A stretch of DNA of 64,000 nucleotides from Lysobacteraceae bacterium NML95-0200 (GTDB lineage: Bacteria > Pseudomonadota > Gammaproteobacteria > Xanthomonadales > Xanthomonadaceae). The first letter of the stretch is position 1; the number at the start of each line of letters is the position of its first letter. Under the pieces are notes generated by a model. The model made no database searches, had not been told where the DNA came from, and was given only the letters and a program-made list of their open reading frames with translations. The translations under genes and the position numbers were made by a program. Positions 3,326 to 38,246 of the stretch are shown in pieces. The DNA lies in assembly GCA_002798255.1 (NCBI GenBank), contig NWQQ01000021.1, positions 124,001-188,000 of the forward strand. The letters run 5' to 3'.

Positions 3326-4725
3326 TCGCTCATACCCAGCGCGCGCAGCATGCCGCGCGCCTTGGCACGGGTTTCGGCCAGCTCTTTTTCCGGCTCCGAA
3401 TCCATCACGATGCCGGCGCCGGTACGAAAGCGCAGGGTATCGCCCTCCAGCTCGGCACTGCGAATGAGGATGTTCAAGTCCATATCGCCATCGCGCCCCA
3501 GCCAGCCCATCGCGCCGGTATAGGCGCCACGCCCGACGCCTTCAAGTCCGGCGATGATTTCCATGCAGCGCACTTTCGGCGCGCCGGTGATGGTGCCGCC
3601 AGGGAATACCGCGGCAATCACGTCCACCGGGGTTTTGCCGGGCACCAGTTTGGCGCGCACATTACTGACGATGTGATGCACATGGGCATAGCTTTCCGCC
3701 GTCATCAGCTCATTGACTTCCACCGTACCCGGCTGGGCAACGCGCCCCAGGTCATTGCGCTGCAAATCGACCAGCATGATGTGCTCGGCACGCTCCTTGG
3801 GATGGCCAATGAGCTCTTTGATGCGCGCGATTTCATCATCGCCGGGCAGGCGTGGGCGGGTGCCGGCAATCGGCCGGGTTTCCACCACGTCCGCGCGTAT
3901 CGATACCAGCCGCTCCGGCGAGGCACTGACCAGTGCCCAGCTGTCATCGGCCAGCACGCCGGCAAATGGGGCTGGATTGGCCTGCGTCAACTGCCGTGCC
4001 AGCAATGCCGGGTCCAGCGGCGTTGCAAACCGCGCCTGCCAGCCACGGGAGAGATTGACCTGGAATACATCGCCTGCGGCCAGATAGTCCAGCGCCTGCT
4101 GCACGGCGCCGGTAAACGCTTCCGGCGCATCCTCGTGCAGCTCAGCGGGCGGCTGCCAGGCAGGCAATTCCGGCAATGTTGCGATGGCGGCGATATCGGC
4201 CAGCACCGCATCGCGCAGTGCATCGGCACCCGGCTCGGCAAGCAGCCAGATTTCGCCACTTTGCTGATTGCGCAAAACCGCAACCGGACAACGCCAGGCC
4301 TGCGCGCGCGGTAGTCGCCCCAAAGGCGCGGGCAGCCGCAGCCGCGGCTCGATTTGAGCCGCCACCTCATAAGCCAGAAACAACGCCCAGCCGCCGCGAA
4401 ATGGCAAGCCCTGCAAGGCAGGCAGCGGGTTTGTCCGTTCGGCCTGCCAGCGTGCCTCCAGTGCAGCCAGAAAGCCGCCAGCCAACGCCTGGCCGCTTTC
4501 ATCGCAAAGCCTGCCGTCCTGGTGTTGAATCAATTTGCGGCCATCGCTGACCAGCAACAAATCCCAACCTGCGTGCTGGCGGGCCGCAGGCTCCAGCGCC
4601 GCAGCACTGGAGGTCAGCAATAACGGGTAACGCTGCGGACAGACCCGCCGCAGCGCCGCCATATCAAGCCCGGCATCCAATACCTGCAGGTGAAAACCCG
4701 CACCATGGTGTACATGAGCGGCCAT
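3322..4725 (-). CDS. pabB: Aminodeoxychorismate synthase component I (PabB)
   Basis: It aminates chorismate to aminodeoxychorismate. The C-terminal two thirds is a chorismate-binding domain with the hallmark stretches VSASPERLVS, TRPIAGTRPR, PGGTITGAPK and the final FRTGAGIV...EPEKELAET block. The N-terminal third is the more variable anthranilate-synthase-type domain. Length is 467 residues from the ATG at 4725, which shares one base with the upstream stop (TGATG); a GTG one codon earlier is possible. No glutamine amidotransferase partner (pabA) is present in the window. Confidence 0.93.
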   Translation of the reverse strand: MAAHVHHGAGFHLQVLDAGLDMAALRRVCPQRYPLLLTSSAAALEPAARQHAGWDLLLVSDGRKLIQHQDGRLCDESGQALAGGFLAALEARWQAERTNPLPALQGLPFRGGWALFLAYEVAAQIEPRLRLPAPLGRLPRAQAWRCPVAVLRNQQSGEIWLLAEPGADALRDAVLADIAAIATLPELPAWQPPAELHEDAPEAFTGAVQQALDYLAAGDVFQVNLSRGWQARFATPLDPALLARQLTQANPAPFAGVLADDSWALVSASPERLVSIRADVVETRPIAGTRPRLPGDDEIARIKELIGHPKERAEHIMLVDLQRNDLGRVAQPGTVEVNELMTAESYAHVHHIVSNVRAKLVPGKTPVDVIAAVFPGGTITGAPKVRCMEIIAGLEGVGRGAYTGAMGWLGRDGDMDLNILIRSAELEGDTLRFRTGAGIVMDSEPEKELAETRAKARGMLRALGMSE

Positions 4726-7048: not shown

Positions 7049-7792
7049 TCAGGGCATGTACATGCCGCCGTTGACGTGCAGGGTTTCGCCGGTGATATAG
7101 GCCGCATCCGGGCCTGCGAGAAAGGCCACCGCGCGGGCAATGTCAGAAGGCTCGCCAGGGCGCCCCAGCGCAATCTGCGCATTCATCGCCGCCTTGGCAT
7201 CCTCGGGCAAGTCGGCGGTCATGTCGGTGGCGATGAAGCCCGGTGCCACCACATTGACGGTGATGCCGCGGCTGCCGATTTCCTTGGCCAGCGACTTGCT
7301 GAAGGCGATGATGCCGGCCTTGGCGGCGGCGTAATTGGCCTGCCCGGCATTGCCGGTGACCCCTACCACCGAGGCGATATTGATGATGCGACCATGGCGC
7401 GCCTTCATCATGCCGCGCATCACCGCCTTGCTGGCGCGATAAACACTGGTGAGGTTGGTGTCGAGAATCGCCTGCCAATCCTCGTCCTTCATGCGCATCA
7501 GCAGGTTGTCGCGGGTGATGCCGGCATTGTTGACCAGAATCGACAGCCCACCGTGATCTTTCTGGATGGCCTCGACCAATGCCTCGATGGCGCCTTCTTC
7601 ATTGACATTCAGCACCCGGCCTTCGCCGCCTTGCGCAGCAAGACGCGCACCGATGGCCGCAGCCCCCGATTCGCTGGTCGCAGTGCCAATGACTTTCGCG
7701 CCACGCGCCGCCAGCTCATCGGCAATCGCCGCGCCGATGCCGCGGGAAGCGCCGGTGACCAGCGCGATTTGGTTCTCAAGCGGTTTGCTCAT
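7049..7792 (-). CDS. fabG: 3-oxoacyl-ACP reductase (FabG)
   Basis: This NADPH-dependent short-chain dehydrogenase reduces 3-oxoacyl-ACP. The 247-residue protein shows the cofactor loop TGASRGIG (13-20), NNAG (88-91), and the catalytic Ser141, Tyr154 and Lys158 (YAAAK). The C-terminal ITGETLHVNGGMYMP is characteristic of FabG rather than other SDR enzymes. It begins 23 bases after fabD and is likely co-transcribed with it. Confidence 0.97.
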   Translation of the reverse strand: MSKPLENQIALVTGASRGIGAAIADELAARGAKVIGTATSESGAAAIGARLAAQGGEGRVLNVNEEGAIEALVEAIQKDHGGLSILVNNAGITRDNLLMRMKDEDWQAILDTNLTSVYRASKAVMRGMMKARHGRIINIASVVGVTGNAGQANYAAAKAGIIAFSKSLAKEIGSRGITVNVVAPGFIATDMTADLPEDAKAAMNAQIALGRPGEPSDIARAVAFLAGPDAAYITGETLHVNGGMYMP

Positions 7793-27517: not shown

Positions 27518-27975
27518 ACGCACCGATAACACCACCCTCTCTGGCCGCGCAAATCGCGAATCTGCCCAAGTTGCCCATGAAGGATTTGTGGGCGGTTTGG
27601 GATAAGTATTTCCCGCAGCGACCGCCCCACCATAACCGGGCCTATGTTGAAGGCCGCGTCGCTTACAAGATTCAGGAGGAAGCGCTGGGCACCAAACTCG
27701 CCGTGCAGACGCAAATGGCACGGATTGGTGAAGCGCAATCCAACATCAAGACGCAGCGGGGCGTTGAAGTGCAAGTCATTCCCGGCACGGTTCTGGTACG
27801 GGAATTTGACAACCGCGAGCACCGCGTCACCGCGCAGGCGGATGGTTCCTTTGAATACGAAGGCCGCCGATTCAAGAGCTTGTCCGGAGTCGCTCGCCAC
27901 ATCACCGGCACCCAATGGTCAGGGCCGCTGTTTTTCGGACTCACCAAGAACAAACAGAAGCGAGGTGCCCAGTGA
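27514..27975 (+). CDS. DUF2924 family protein
   Basis: The 153-residue protein has the DUF2924 pattern: an N-terminal helical part with LWAVWDKYFPQRPPHHNR and a C-terminal part with PGTVLVREF and GRRFKSLSGVARHITGTQWSGPLFFGL. DUF2924 genes very often precede a serine recombinase gene in proteobacterial prophages and islands, which is the case here with a GTGA overlap. It may assist the recombinase, for example as a DNA-binding or directionality partner, but this is inference. Confidence 0.88.
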   Translation: MNAPITPPSLAAQIANLPKLPMKDLWAVWDKYFPQRPPHHNRAYVEGRVAYKIQEEALGTKLAVQTQMARIGEAQSNIKTQRGVEVQVIPGTVLVREFDNREHRVTAQADGSFEYEGRRFKSLSGVARHITGTQWSGPLFFGLTKNKQKRGAQ

Positions 27976-29339
27976 ATACCGTCGTAACCAAGAAGCGCTG
28001 CGCCGTCTACACCCGTGTCTCCACGGACGAGCGCCTCGACCAGTCTTTCAATTCCCTCGACGCCCAGCGCGAAGCGGGTCAAGCCTACATCGTCAGTCAG
28101 CGTGCCGAGGGCTGGTTGCCGGTAGGCGACGACTACGACGACGGTGGTTACTCGGGCGGAAACATGGAGCGTCCGGCCTTGAAGCGCCTGATGGCCGACA
28201 TCATTGCCGACCAGATCGACATCGTGGTCGTCTACAAAATCGACCGCCTGACGCGTAGCCTGACCGACTTTGCCAAGCTGGTAGAGGTGTTTGAGCGCCA
28301 CAAGGTGTCGTTCGTGTCGGTCACCCAGCAATTCAACACCACCACGTCAATGGGTAGGCTGATGCTCAACATCCTGCTGTCTTTCGCCCAGTTCGAACGC
28401 GAGGTCACAGGCGAGCGCATCCGCGACAAGATCGCCGCCAGCAAGCGCAAGGGGCTGTGGATGGGCGGTTACACACCACTGGGCTACGAGATCAAAGATC
28501 GCAAGCTGGTCATTGAGGAGAAGGATGCGCAAACCATCCGGCGCATCTTCACGCGCTTCGCCGAAACGCGCTGCATCACGGACATCATCCGCGAGATGGC
28601 CCTGGAGGGCATCACCACCAAGCCAAATCGTCTGAAGGACGGCAGTGTGCGCAACGGCACGCCGATGGACAAGAAGTACATATCCAAGGTACTGCGCAAC
28701 CCGATCTACGTTGGCGAAATTCGTCACAAAGGAGCGGTTTATGCCGGTCAGCACGAGCCGATCATCACCCGGCAGTTGTGGGATCGGGTCCAGGACATCC
28801 TGTCCGAGGACGCGCACCAACGCATGGGCAAGACTCAAACGCGGCACAAAACCGACGCGTTATTGCGCGGCCTGATGTACGGGCCAGATGGTGGCAAGTA
28901 CCACATCACCTACAGCAAGAAGCCATCCGGCAAAAAATACCGCTACTACATCCCCAAGGCAGACAGCCGCTACGGCTACCGCAGCAGTGCCACCGGGATG
29001 ATCCCCGCCGACCAGATCGAGGAAGTAGTGGTGAACCTGCTGGTGGGGGCACTCCAGTCGCCAGAAAGCATCCAAGGGGTCTGGAACACGGTGCGAATCA
29101 AGTACCCGGAGATCGACGAACCAACCACCGTGCTGGCCATGCGCCGCCTCGGGGATGTCTGGAAGCAGTTGTTCCCGGCCGAGCAGACACGTCTGGTCAA
29201 CCTGCTGATCGAGCGCGTTCAGCTTCTGTCTGATGGTGTTGACATTGTCTGGCGTGAGTCGGGATGGCGGGAACTGGCCGGTGAGTTGGAGGCAAACAGC
29301 ATTGGGGGCGAGCTGCTGGAAATGGAGGTTACCCCATGA
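27972..29339 (+). CDS. Serine site-specific recombinase (integrase)
   Basis: This large serine recombinase probably integrates and excises the element. The 455-residue protein has the resolvase domain at the N-terminus with the nucleophile Ser17 (VYTRVSTDERLDQ), DDGGYSGGNMERPAL, KIDRLTRSL and AQFEREVTGERIRDKI. A recombinase domain (KYISKVLRNPIYVGEI) and a further DNA-binding part follow. GTG start overlaps the DUF2924 stop. A recombinase of this type does not need to target a tRNA, so the nearby tRNA-Ala may be coincidental. Confidence 0.95.
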   Translation: MNTVVTKKRCAVYTRVSTDERLDQSFNSLDAQREAGQAYIVSQRAEGWLPVGDDYDDGGYSGGNMERPALKRLMADIIADQIDIVVVYKIDRLTRSLTDFAKLVEVFERHKVSFVSVTQQFNTTTSMGRLMLNILLSFAQFEREVTGERIRDKIAASKRKGLWMGGYTPLGYEIKDRKLVIEEKDAQTIRRIFTRFAETRCITDIIREMALEGITTKPNRLKDGSVRNGTPMDKKYISKVLRNPIYVGEIRHKGAVYAGQHEPIITRQLWDRVQDILSEDAHQRMGKTQTRHKTDALLRGLMYGPDGGKYHITYSKKPSGKKYRYYIPKADSRYGYRSSATGMIPADQIEEVVVNLLVGALQSPESIQGVWNTVRIKYPEIDEPTTVLAMRRLGDVWKQLFPAEQTRLVNLLIERVQLLSDGVDIVWRESGWRELAGELEANSIGGELLEMEVTP

Positions 29340-34334: not shown

Positions 34335-34597
34335 ATGCCTACTCACAAGCATCAGCGGCGGAACCAATGGTGGGCGCACGCCAAGCCGCCCGTCTGCTGA
34401 ATCTCCCGCTGTACTACTTCACCAAGCCACGGTGTCGGGTTTCGAAGCGTATTCCTCACTACCGGATCGGCAATATGGTTCGCTTCCGGATGTCGGAGCT
34501 CATCAAATGGGCAGAAACACAAGGATGCGCACGCATCCCCTCTGATTTGTCATTGGAGGAGATCGCCGATGTGATCGGAGGTGCCGTCGATGCTTGA
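34331..34597 (+). CDS. Small phage HTH protein
   Basis: The 88-residue protein has an excisionase/MerR-like segment: ARQAARLLNLPLYYFTKPR followed by YRIGNMVRFRMSELIKW. The ATG overlaps the nuclease stop (ATGA). It overlaps the primase-helicase start by eight bases. It may be an early regulator or a replication accessory factor. Confidence 0.75.
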   Translation: MNAYSQASAAEPMVGARQAARLLNLPLYYFTKPRCRVSKRIPHYRIGNMVRFRMSELIKWAETQGCARIPSDLSLEEIADVIGGAVDA

Positions 34598-36884
34598 CTT
34601 CAACGACACCCAACACCCCGTCCAGCCCCGGCGCATCTTCGATGACAGCGAACGCGAGGCGCTGCGGGCAGGCTTGATCGCTGGTTTGCCCTCGGTGCTC
34701 GCCACCTTGTTTCCGGCAGGCAAGAAGCGCCGGGGCAAGTTCCTGATCGGTGACGTGCTGGGTAGTCCCGGCGACAGCCTTGAGGTCGTGCTCGACGGTG
34801 AAAAAGCTGGACTGTGGACGGATCGCGCCACAGGCGACGGCGGCGACATCTTCAACCTCATTGCCGGACATTTGGCGCTCAATATCCACACCGACTTCAA
34901 CCGGGTGCTGGATGCGGCGGCCGAACTGCTCGGTCGCGCCCGCGAAATGCCAGTGCGTCGATCCGGCAAGAAAGAGATGCCCGTCGACGAGCTTGGCCCC
35001 GCCACAGCGAAGTGGGACTACCTCGATGCGAGCGGCAAGCTGATCGCGGTGGTCTACCGCTACGACCCACCCGGGCAGAAGAAGCAGTTCCGCCCTTGGG
35101 ACGCCAAGCGGCGCAAGATGACGCCGCCCGACCCGCGCCCGCTCTACAACCAGCCCGGGATGCTCAATGCCGCCCAGGTGGTACTGGTCGAGGGCGAGAA
35201 ATGCGCACAGACCCTGATCGACGCGGGCATCGTCGCCACCACGGCCATGCACGGTGCCAACGCCCCGGTCGACAAGACCGACTGGTCGCCGCTGGCGGGC
35301 AAGGCCGTGCTGATCTGGCCCGACCGCGACAAACCGGGCTGGGAGTACGCCACGCAAGCGGCGCAGGCCATCCTGTCGGCCGGAGCCAAGTCCTGCCACA
35401 TCCTGTACCCGCCTGAGGAAGCCGCCGAGGGCTGGGACGCGGCGGACGCCATCACCGAGGGTTTTGATGTCGCCACCTTCCTCACCCACGGCCCGCGCCT
35501 GCAAATGCACGATGTGGCCGATGAGGCCGAGCCGGTGGTCAGCAGCGACGAATCCGTCTGGGGTACCGAGGACGCGCTGGCGCTGTCCTTCACCCGGCGC
35601 TACCACCGCGACTGGCGCTATGTGGCGACCTGGGGGCGATGGCTGGTGTGGGACGGGCAACGCTGGCGCACCGAGGACACGCTGGCGGCCACCGACCTGA
35701 TCCGAAGCGTCTGCCGCCAGGCTGCTGTGCGTGCCGACAACCCCAAGATTGCCGCCAAACTCGCCAGCGCCAGTACGGTCGGTGGTGTGGAACGGCTGGC
35801 GCGTGCGGATCGCAGGCACGCGGCCATCACCGACGAATGGGACGCTGATCCGTGGCTGCTCAACACACTCGGCGGCGTGGTCGATCTCAGGACTGGCCGG
35901 ATGCGCCCGCACGAGCGCGCTGACCGGATGACCAAGATCACCACGGCCACGCCCAGCGGCGATTGCCCGACCTGGAAGCAGTTCATCAACGAGGTCACGG
36001 GCGGCGACAAGGCGCTTCAGGCCTACCTGCAGCGGATGCTTGGCTACGCCTTGACCGGCTCCACGCAGGAGCACGCACTGTTTTTCCTGTACGGCACGGG
36101 CGCAAACGGCAAGTCGGTGTTCGTGAACACCTTGGCCACCATCCTCGGTGACTACGCCACCAACGCGCCCATGGACACCTTCATGGAAACGCGCACCGAC
36201 CGCCATCCGACCGACATGGCGGGTCTGCGCGGCGCGCGCTTCGTGGCGGCCATCGAAACCGAACAGGGCAAACGCTGGGCCGAGTCCAAGCTCAAGAACC
36301 TGACCGGCGGCGACAAGATCTCCGCACGCTTCATGCGTCAGGACTTCTTCGAGTTCCTCCCGCAGTTCAAGCTGTTCGTGGCGGGCAACCACAAACCGGC
36401 CATCCGCAACATCGACGAGGCCATGAAACGCAGGCTGCACCTGATCCCGTTCACGATCACCGTGCCACCCGAGCGCCGCGACAAAAACCTGCAGCAAAAG
36501 CTGCTGGCCGAGCGCGACGGCATCCTCGCATGGGCCGTGCAGGGCTGTCTGGACTGGCAGCGTCACGGTCGGCTTGATCCGCCACAGCGCGTGGTGGAGG
36601 CCACCGAGGAGTACTTCGAGGCTGAGGACGCGCTGGGGCGCTGGCTGGATGAACGCTGCATTCGCACCCCGAACGCCAAGTCTCTGACCGCCGAACTGTT
36701 CTCCGACTGGAAGCAATGGGCTGAAGCTGCGGGTGAGTTCACCGGATCGCAGAAGCGTTTTGCCGATCTGCTGCTCACCCGGGGATTGGACAAATGGCGC
36801 AACGGCATGGGCTTGCGCGGGTTTCAGGGCATTGGTCTCAAGTACCCGCCTGCACCTGCCTACACCCCTTACGCCGATAACTGA
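34590..36884 (+). CDS. Phage primase-helicase (D5/SF3 helicase type)
   Basis: The 764-residue protein probably primes and unwinds phage DNA. The N-terminal region (to about residue 280) is primase-like, with WTDRATGDGGDIFNLIAGH and a TOPRIM-like VVLVEGEKCAQTLIDAGI. A D5-N-type segment follows (about 320-480). The helicase core starts with Walker A GTGANGKS at 502-509 and continues with KLFVAGNHKPAIR (sensor) and RRLHLIPF. GGAGG eight bases before the ATG supports the start. It is the central replication gene of this prophage. Confidence 0.92.
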   Translation: MLDFNDTQHPVQPRRIFDDSEREALRAGLIAGLPSVLATLFPAGKKRRGKFLIGDVLGSPGDSLEVVLDGEKAGLWTDRATGDGGDIFNLIAGHLALNIHTDFNRVLDAAAELLGRAREMPVRRSGKKEMPVDELGPATAKWDYLDASGKLIAVVYRYDPPGQKKQFRPWDAKRRKMTPPDPRPLYNQPGMLNAAQVVLVEGEKCAQTLIDAGIVATTAMHGANAPVDKTDWSPLAGKAVLIWPDRDKPGWEYATQAAQAILSAGAKSCHILYPPEEAAEGWDAADAITEGFDVATFLTHGPRLQMHDVADEAEPVVSSDESVWGTEDALALSFTRRYHRDWRYVATWGRWLVWDGQRWRTEDTLAATDLIRSVCRQAAVRADNPKIAAKLASASTVGGVERLARADRRHAAITDEWDADPWLLNTLGGVVDLRTGRMRPHERADRMTKITTATPSGDCPTWKQFINEVTGGDKALQAYLQRMLGYALTGSTQEHALFFLYGTGANGKSVFVNTLATILGDYATNAPMDTFMETRTDRHPTDMAGLRGARFVAAIETEQGKRWAESKLKNLTGGDKISARFMRQDFFEFLPQFKLFVAGNHKPAIRNIDEAMKRRLHLIPFTITVPPERRDKNLQQKLLAERDGILAWAVQGCLDWQRHGRLDPPQRVVEATEEYFEAEDALGRWLDERCIRTPNAKSLTAELFSDWKQWAEAAGEFTGSQKRFADLLLTRGLDKWRNGMGLRGFQGIGLKYPPAPAYTPYADN

Positions 36885-36894
36885 AACAAGCGCA

Positions 36895-36990
36895 TCTGAC
36901 GGATCGGACGGACTACGTCGTAACTCCTACACGTGCGCGTGCGCGCGCGCCTCATGGAGACTTTCGATACCACCCGTCCGATCCGTCAGA
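36895..36990. repeat. 17-bp perfect inverted repeat enclosing a Z-DNA-prone tract
   Basis: TCTGACGGATCGGACGG (36895-36911) is matched by its exact complement at 36974-36990, with 62 bases between. Inside, 36929-36950 is 22 bases of uninterrupted purine-pyrimidine alternation (acacgtgcgc...). It fills the gap between the helicase gene and a RuvC-like gene and could be a replication origin or cruciform site. Confidence 0.8.
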
Positions 36991-37015
36991 CCCGCCAAAA
37001 ACGAGGACTGACACC

Positions 37016-37492
37016 ATGACCACGACCCTTCTTGCCCTGGATCTGGGCACCACCACCGGCTGGGCGCTGCGCGGCAGCGACGGTCACATCACCAGCGGCT
37101 GCGAGAGCTTCCGTCCGCAGCGATTTGAAGGCGGCGGCATGCGCTTTCTGCGCTTCAAACGCTGGCTTACCGAAATCAAGCAGGCGTCGGACGGCATCGA
37201 CGCACTGCACTTCGAGGAAGTTCGCCGCCACGTCTCGACCGATGCGGCCCACGCCTACGGCGGTTTCCTTGCCACGCTCACCGCCTGGTGCGAGCACCAC
37301 CAGATCCCGTACCAGGGCGTGCCGGTCGGCACGATCAAAAAGCACGCTACCGGCAAAGGCAACGCGGGCAAGGAGGATGTGATCGCTGCCATGCGCGCAC
37401 GAGGTCACAGCCCTTCGGACGACAACGAGGCCGACGCACTGGCCTTGCTGCACTGGGCCATCCAGCACCACGACGTGGAACAGGAGGTGTGA
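37016..37492 (+). CDS. RuvC-like Holliday junction endonuclease
   Basis: The 158-residue protein has an RNase H-like fold with RuvC-type acidic residues: Asp9 (LALDLGTTTGWA), Glu67/68 (HFEEVRRH) and Asp135, Asp136, Glu138 and Asp140 (SDDNEADALALL). Phage RuvC-like enzymes cut branched DNA before packaging. The basic GTIKKHATGKGNAGKED segment matches the family. It directly follows the large inverted repeat and precedes a DUF6362 gene by one base. Confidence 0.88.
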   Translation: MTTTLLALDLGTTTGWALRGSDGHITSGCESFRPQRFEGGGMRFLRFKRWLTEIKQASDGIDALHFEEVRRHVSTDAAHAYGGFLATLTAWCEHHQIPYQGVPVGTIKKHATGKGNAGKEDVIAAMRARGHSPSDDNEADALALLHWAIQHHDVEQEV

Positions 37493-37889: not shown

Positions 37890-38246
37890 TCTTTGAGCAC
37901 GAATGTGCGTGGATAAGCTGCCATGTGCTGTCATCAGCTACCACCAGCGACTTTTGAGCCTGCAACAAATCACCCCGGTCGGGGGTAGTATTTCGGCTAT
38001 CTTCTGGACAGCGGTGGCGGTTCGGCGAGTGGCCCGGGGAAAACGGGTCCTTCCTACCCAAAATCCCATGCGGGGGGCGCGAGCGCGACGCTTTTTTAGC
38101 GTCAGGGCGCGGGCAAGGTTACCAGTGGGCAGGTTACCGGCCCCGGTTACCACCCCAAGGCGCAGTTACCACCCTTCCAGATTCATCATTCACTCCAACC
38201 CGTCCGGCGGCAACGCTTGGCGGGTTTTGTTTTTGGGATTTCCACT
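37890..38246. other. Intergenic region with GTTACC repeats and a small hairpin
   Basis: No supported gene lies in these 357 bases. A hairpin GACGC-TTTTTTA-GCGTC occupies 38087-38103. Four GTTACC motifs follow (38118-38123, 38133-38138, 38146-38151, 38165-38170), three of them as GGTTACC, with start spacing of 15, 13 and 19 bases. They could be binding sites for a replication or regulatory protein, or promoters of the methyltransferase operon. Confidence 0.6.

Follow-up and report, generated by a model that had tools for sequence, protein, structure and literature searches.

A predicted phage replication origin with a conserved purine–pyrimidine alternating core, adjoining a D5-type primase-helicase gene

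The window analyzed here, the whole stretch of 64,000 nucleotides at positions 124,001 to 188,000 of contig NWQQ01000021.1 from Lysobacteraceae bacterium NML95-0200, contains a compact element in which two inverted arms flank an alternating purine–pyrimidine core, positioned between the gene of a D5-type primase-helicase and that of a RuvC-like resolvase. Comparative analysis suggested that the phage probably uses this element as its replication origin, or at minimum as the site at which the initiator of that origin is loaded. Recognition of the element by the helicase, which we consider very probable, is better supported than origin function, and both rank above the tentative proposal that the core works as a Z-DNA switch. 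An origin of replication had been one inference of the initial annotation, and it is strongly supported by the comparison, in which the arms appear to co-evolve with the helicase C-terminus and the content of the slot varies with the helicase domain; a further basis, by analogy, is the inferred or annotated origin of related proteins at the same place.

The two perfect 17-bp arms with 62 bases between them that the annotation had described were confirmed at 36895-36911 and 36974-36990, as was their location between the end of the primase-helicase stop codon (36884) and the start of the RuvC-like gene (37016). They form the only perfect inverted repeat of at least 14 bp with a loop of up to 200 bases in the window, and first-order Markov simulations (n=20), with an average of 8.9 11-bp seeds per 64 kb, extrapolate to about 0.003 17-bp arms. 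Each arm holds two iteron-like repeats, and the autocorrelation of the left arms at a lag of 9 bases was 0.50 vs 0.19-0.36 at other lags (30 representatives). A covariance model of the element, R1, of which the window sequence is one of the 32 rows, matched the window over its full length at a single place, with hits to both strands there (116.8 and 55.9 bits).

Probable recognition of the arms by the primase-helicase

Arm sequences were compared with protein domains in 82 loci, thinned from the 189 with all domains, and residues 641-767 of the primase-helicase were taken as its C-terminal domain. Arm distance correlated best with the distance of this domain (Spearman 0.66), followed by the Toprim domain (0.32), the D5 ATPase region (0.31) and RuvC (0.17). 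In partial Mantel tests, the C-terminal correlation was 0.65, 0.61 and 0.61 given RuvC, Toprim and D5, respectively (p 0.002 each, 499 permutations), and those of RuvC, Toprim and D5 given the C-terminus were -0.09, -0.005 and -0.06. Adjacency alone would lead one to expect an arm–ruvC correlation too, because the ruvC start is equally near on the other side. The region between the arms likewise had the C-terminus as its best correlate (0.67). These comparisons support co-evolution of the arms with the C-terminal domain, and they point to a DNA element that would be read by the adjoining primase-helicase rather than to an RNA or a RuvC substrate.

At the level of single positions, covariation links arm bases to residues that lie within the predicted recognition helix of the C-terminal domain or next to it. 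CTGAC or CCGAC arms occur in 150 of the 150 loci with the motif KWRN at residues 738-741, and in 1 of the 90 without it (L179, which has KWRD). Three loci (L255, L256 and L270) have QWKN, and there all four TGAC copies read CGGC; since pairing needs no match between the repeats of one arm, this joint difference points to a protein. Within 94 distinct KWRN proteins and their arms, the adjusted mutual information (AMI) was 0.77 between arm base 18 and residue 725 (K with G, R with C), 0.53 between base 20 and residue 723, and 0.49 between base 22 and residue 728. Over the 94 distinct C-termini, residue 725 and base 18 were combined as R-C in 62, K-G in 28, K-C in 4 and R-G in 0. Residue 745, beside a predicted wing strand, also tracks base 18 (AMI 0.56), and among the variable columns 749-767, which are nearer the element, no value exceeded 0.14 with base 18 or 0.22 with base 20. 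On the Toprim tree, 10 independent starred pairs were obtained, of which usually 9 were concordant and 0 opposite (median p 0.004); the RuvC tree gave 7 starred pairs (median p 0.03).

The primase-helicase is predicted to end in a winged-helix domain. An AlphaFold2 model of residues 601-767, based on 55 sequences, placed a helix at 703-717, a recognition helix at 724-733 and wing strands at 737-740 and 746-749, with a predicted local distance difference test score of 89-95 for the residue blocks of 691-750 and 76 for the whole model. The co-varying residues 725 and 728 lie inside the predicted recognition helix, and 723 lies just before it. The best rows of a VIA-align comparison were RFX DNA-binding domains (Z 9.9 and 9.3) and the C-terminus of the African swine fever virus PrimPol (8.9); Foldseek alone returned no match for the C-terminal model at E 0.001 or better. 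D5_N and DUF5906 are above the Pfam cut-off in the window protein, no archaeo-eukaryotic primase domain is among its Pfam matches, and Toprim was seen below the cut-off (E 0.0013) in the relative L076.

The slot between the two genes provided further comparisons. Eleven loci carry the same RuvC-like gene with a helicase match that, where seen, ends near residue 306; in one of them, L068, the remainder of the protein is an AAA_25 domain and the slot (3693-3901) holds many GTTGGCA copies in both orientations in place of the element. Because these repeats occur where the helicase differs and the RuvC-like gene is the same, what the slot contains goes with the helicase rather than with RuvC. GTTGGCA/TGCCAAC-type repeats were also observed in L054, L055, L057, L058, L060, L063, L064, L067, L070 and L079, and in the loci displayed a strong hairpin then follows the array, with the same RuvC-like gene downstream. 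The array is a candidate for a second, unrelated-looking origin in the same slot. Relatives of the RuvC-like gene were also noted in Wolbachia phage WO, with about 57-66% identity over the matched part (H67-H73, H75, H76 and H78).

In one lineage, the element is separated from ruvC by 4.4-6.5 kb. In L117, only 18 bases separate the primase-helicase (48-2186) from ruvC (2205-2687), and the element is absent from this gap; it is found instead at 7093-7219, about 4.4 kb from ruvC, with other genes intervening and a ParB/methyltransferase gene downstream of it. L115 has the same order of helicase end, RuvC match (528-959) and element (7437-7561), and in L116 and L118 elements of the same arm type adjoin the ParB/methyltransferase gene. 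Unrelated cargo genes were observed near the element and this gene in all four loci, and the spot may be an insertion hotspot.

Features of the element and its neighbors in the window. Residue numbering of the primase-helicase starts at GTG 34581; positions are those of the window.
Feature	Position	Strand	Remark
Whole element per covariance model R1	36888..37010	+	
Left arm, TCTGACGGATCGGACGG	36895..36911	+	Perfect inverted repeat; two iteron-like repeats 9 bp apart
Left-arm repeat TGAC	36897-36900		
Left-arm repeat GGAC	36906-36909		
Alignment bases 18, 20 and 22	36902, 36904, 36906		
Middle inverted element, left half, TCGTAACTCC	36918..36927	+	Conserved in aligned family
Z-DNA-prone core	36928..36950	none	23-base strict purine-pyrimidine alternation
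Middle inverted element, right half, GGAGACTTTCGA	36956..36967	+	Aligned-family helices
Right arm, CCGTCCGATCCGTCAGA	36974..36990	-	Same repeat pair, inverted orientation
Primase-helicase, proposed initiator	34581..36884	+	D5_N + DUF5906, phrog_6088
Region coding the predicted C-terminal winged-helix domain	36678..36830	+	About residues 700-750
Codons of the predicted recognition helix (724-733)	36750..36779	+	AlphaFold2 model
RuvC-like resolvase gene, neighbor	37016..37492	+	phrog_159

The element family and its alternating core

The family was assembled from stretches upstream of ruvC in 80 IMG/VR loci, most of which contained an inverted repeat there with arms differing in sequence. Scans with two divergent primase-helicases and genome searches enlarged the set to 259 loci that matched a helicase or ruvC and had sufficient sequence, of which 253 passed the arm test; the others were L078, L090 (where R1 finds the element), L115 and L117 (displaced elements), L121 and L272. 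After dropping 12 loci with another or unseen helicase, 241 were kept, comprising 61 clusters at a similarity of 0.9 and 31 at 0.8 (difflib ratio). As loci overlap and recur between scans, the cluster counts are the honest figures. The loci excluded for another or unseen helicase were L054, L055, L056, L057, L058, L060, L063, L064, L067, L068, L070, L078 and L079, 12 of which had passed the arm test. L017, with mis-anchored arms although R1 finds its element, was left out of later counts, including that of 160 distinct element sequences. Of 398 genomes from the order, 15 were matched by R1, and of 274 from the class, 2, both tallies including the window's own genome; a plain DNA search matched 3 of 60 genomes (own included) and three phage records, all AcaML1, and the AcaML1 element (L084, 8202-8315) was seen to carry a third TGAC copy in its left arm.

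Pairing of the arms has been maintained while their sequence changed. Applied to the alignment of all 50 elements, RNAalifold returned only a 5-pair artefact, which arose from mis-registration of the two repeats in each arm; on a 32-sequence subset it returned the full structure. In the alignment of these 32 rows, 93.5% of cells were paired vs 87.1% after shuffling, and 63 cells carried two-sided changes vs 28.8 (neither value reached by any of 500 shuffles); pairs with two-sided changes numbered 13 vs 10.2, which 27 of the 500 shuffles reached.

The initial annotation had also pointed to a Z-DNA-prone center with 22 bases of strict alternation; the alternation is present, its length being 23 bases, and the Z-DNA-prone center was supported as a conserved sequence property. 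This tract is the longest alternation in the window (the next being 18 and 16), and about 0.008 such runs would be expected at random. At least 14 alternating bases (median 21) are found in 57 of the 61 clusters vs 0.2% of shuffles; the clusters below this length are L017, L082, L190 and L202. Substitutions were counted in 49 pairs of related elements, with no element entering more than one pair and the core defined independently of alternation. Transitions and transversions numbered 61:6 in the central 20 bases, 118:103 in the core-to-arm region and 47:37 in the arms, and the excess in the central bases was significant against both the core-to-arm region (p 3.6e-9) and the arms (p 1.4e-6). 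Indels in the tract were mostly of 2 or 4 bases (16 of 19, a count inflated because each pair was counted both ways), and 89 of the 103 TA/AT steps were located at tract edges. Over 57 tracts, the best hairpin score was 5.11 vs 5.07 in shuffles that permuted the purines and the pyrimidines separately, each within its own class of positions, and pairing therefore does not explain the tract. As the changes are nearly all transitions and the hairpin is no better than in these shuffles, it is the alternation itself that is conserved, and conserved CG-rich alternation of this kind would be expected from selection for Z-DNA propensity.

We infer from these comparisons that the C-terminal winged helix of the phage's own D5 primase-helicase, which is of the superfamily 3 (SF3) type, would bind the two 9-bp-spaced iterons of each arm and that replication would start here. 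Because the arms are inverted, two initiator assemblies, presumably hexamers, would face each other over about 60 bp, with their winged helices clamping both sides of the core. By adopting the Z form, the alternating tract would absorb or store superhelical stress and so aid opening between the assemblies, and in the opened DNA the helicase would load and the primase would prime. It is conceivable, though we lean slightly against it, that the elements constitute a phage-origin family with an essential Z-DNA-forming core, in which a B-to-Z switch would provide or hold the torsional energy needed to open GC-rich origin DNA and the core would stand in for an AT-rich unwinding element.

Two observations concern the surroundings of the element. 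Four GGTTACC-like repeats (38117, 38132, 38145 and 38164, within 38117-38170) lie just upstream of the ParB/methyltransferase gene of the window, and GGTTCGCA-like repeats occupy the matching place in L094; these may form a ParB-like site or a site for packaging. Integration is suggested by a large serine recombinase gene at 27915-29339.

Comparison with known replication systems

A close parallel is the crenarchaeal plasmid pRN1, which, in the passages describing it, requires a 100-nt stem-loop just downstream of a gene for a primase, SF3 helicase and winged helix; this stem-loop functions when displaced and is conserved in structure, not in sequence (PMC4234260). Its role as origin is inferred by those authors, by their own statement without direct evidence, and they proposed a like stem-loop for Bordetella phage BIP-1 (PMC4234260). 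Similarly, a stem-loop of about 100 bp lies right 3' of the gene here, except in L115 and L117 (displaced) and L121 and L272 (none seen), and the initiator has an SF3-type helicase and a predicted C-terminal winged helix. As in pRN1, pairing is kept while sequence changes, and the natural displacement in L117 and L115 resembles the tolerated displacement of the plasmid stem-loop. The primase is archaeo-eukaryotic in pRN1, whereas a Toprim-type domain, with weak Pfam support, is found here. Iterons were not found in pRN1, whose binding motifs are called "not yet identified" (PMC4234260, Figure 7 legend), unlike the 9-bp-spaced repeats that appear to co-evolve with the winged helix here, and the passages on pRN1 mention no Z-DNA-prone core.

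Phage P4 offers a second parallel. Its alpha protein combines a primase, an SF3 helicase and a C-terminal origin-binding winged helix that reads repeats (PMC4234260), and vaccinia D5, P4 alpha and pRN1 are grouped as SF3, with the order D5_N + DUF5906 described, in the portion of PMC9611036 that concerns them. The fold predicted here aligns, in the middling range of the tool, to the P4 domain, and the lag-9 repeats together with the residue–base covariation are in line with such a reading of repeats. P4 uses ori plus a separate crr, a copy-control/incompatibility site. Unlike this arrangement, a single compact symmetric element with an alternating core lies right after the gene in most loci; the window has one full-length R1 place, and sites without the R1 architecture would escape R1. 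Origins of the simian virus 40 and adeno-associated virus type also combine an SF3 initiator with paired and inverted short recognition motifs, and their recognition domains differ from the one predicted here. The telomere sites of linear phages, cut by protelomerases, have a long inverted repeat with an alternating CG-rich center; unlike in those sites, the arms here are not contiguous.

Among 13 distant phages with helicases of 30-41% identity (three from the top matches and ten from a spread list, 15 shuffles each), phi105, LeMond, GMA4 and ZoeJ have clear lag-9 inverted arms 80-115 bases apart, and Lactobacillus phage A2 is marginal. The depositors of the A2 genome annotated a rep_origin in the same slot, and experimental work on the A2 origin reportedly exists. 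BMP-1, which is close to BIP-1, has a 23-nt inverted repeat (78%) with its halves 52 nt apart after the helicase match. In LeMond (L281) and ZoeJ (L289), the D5-type primase-helicase and lag-9 inverted arms are followed by a RusA-like resolvase gene; the arrangement of helicase, repeat and resolvase thus recurs with a differently named resolvase.

Alternative explanations and implications

A regulatory site of the same initiator, whether an operator or, as with P4 crr, a site of copy control or incompatibility, with replication starting elsewhere, is an unlikely alternative, since co-evolution demonstrates recognition and not origin function, and the element lies upstream of ruvC, a possible operator target. 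Such a site fits less well with the single full-length R1 place in the window, with a slot equal to that of the stem-loop reported as required in pRN1 and of the annotated rep_origin of A2, and with the L117 element, which lies away from both ruvC and the helicase; a conserved Z-prone core would also be unexpected for an operator. We hold it improbable that the element acts as a structured RNA, be it a ruvC mRNA leader, an RNase III site or a small RNA. The RNA fold of the + strand has a z of -6.3, about 21-31 nt separate the arm from the start of ruvC in most first-scan loci, the covariation score exceeds all shuffles (the count of pairs changed on both sides does not), and G-T mismatches exceed A-C in the arms at the 0.9 level; however, an Rfam scan gave no match above the gathering score at the element, which is sometimes far from ruvC, the central tract makes no better hairpin than alternation-preserving shuffles, the repeats within one arm match at a lag of 9 although pairing does not need it, and arm bases track helicase residues.

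Still less probable is that the RuvC-like resolvase cuts the element as a cruciform or hairpin, in recombination or in telomere-like resolution; a cruciform recognized by this enzyme had been offered by the initial annotation beside the origin. The long inverted repeat, the RuvC-like gene adjoining it in most loci and the co-occurrence of a resolvase with a D5-type helicase speak for this possibility; the comparison does not support it, as arm distance fails to track that of RuvC, the same gene stands beside GTTGGCA-type repeats in 11 loci, and the element is kilobases from ruvC in the L117 lineage. For resolution of the telomere type, no protelomerase (PF16684) was found in the window's own genome (46 contigs). 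Finally, an intergenic palindrome inside a gene-dense operon might be a bidirectional transcription terminator, or a functionless palindrome kept perfect by template-switch repair. Neither arm is followed by a T-run, a terminator scan, covering loops of 3-8 only, had no entry at the element, and residue–base covariation with conserved alternation indicates selection, so we give these possibilities hardly any weight.

Several results weigh against the element being an origin read by the helicase. GC skew at third codon positions shows no flip at the element (-0.05 in the C-terminal coding region and -0.22 in ruvC, 82 loci; +0.06 in g6836, 76 loci), and GC skew, which the initial annotation had named as a check, is for this reason not used as support, although the minimum of cumulative skew over 26-64 kb of the window, at 36-38 kb, fits an origin. 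In the first 18 arm pairs, G-T and A-C mismatches numbered 47:19 in the 0.9 clusters (p 0.0008) and 21:14 in the 0.8 clusters (p 0.31), a hint that part of the family folds in a strand-specific or single-stranded manner, which is not predicted for a site that is purely double-stranded. Given the C-terminus, the inter-arm region keeps correlations with D5 (0.29), Toprim (0.24) and RuvC (0.12). Residue 755, nearer the element, is second only to 728 for base 22 (AMI 0.36), bases 19 and 21 lack a strong partner (at most 0.24 and 0.28), and the D5 tree has only 5 starred pairs, which is too few (median p 0.125). The lag-9 value of the arms compares with 0.38 in a control, the 3' coding stretch of the helicase. 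The P4 origin-binding domain 1ka8 is the eighth row of the structural comparison (Z 7.7, root-mean-square deviation 3.6, 76 residues), in the range where the tool warns of a merely common arrangement, and denotes fold similarity only. The D5-type loci L121 and L272 have no element in their available sequence, and the pRN1 stem-loop, in the account cited, had no specific binding by gel shift or footprint (PMC4234260). Among the distant phages, the arm architecture is clearly above shuffles in only 4 of 13; the lag-9 arms of BMP-1, Ascela, SuMoo, Shayna, Javan8, Kurnik, DSP2 and JNU_P5 are not.

The titles and abstract openings listed by the literature searches yielded no earlier description of the element, its recognition code or its core; in the passages covered, PMC5567305 has 0 occurrences of RuvC, primase or inverted repeat, and PMC2679651 holds nothing relevant to the element. 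This kind of origin is already known from pRN1 and P4 alpha, and within these searches the variant, the code and the conserved core appear to be new.

Together, the element and the adjoining primase-helicase provide a predicted origin and initiator for a large group of temperate phages. The pairing of residues 723, 725 and 728 with bases 20, 18 and 22 would represent a natural recognition code that is accessible to simple swaps, and the element family suggests where the binding motifs of pRN1 may be sought. In addition, since alternation is conserved apart from exact sequence and from pairing, the old question of whether Z-DNA has a function in the replication of bacteria or phages becomes directly testable. 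If the proposal of an essential Z-DNA-forming core is true, these phages would offer an example from prokaryotes in which evolution has conserved Z-DNA for replication, together with a residue-by-base recognition code.
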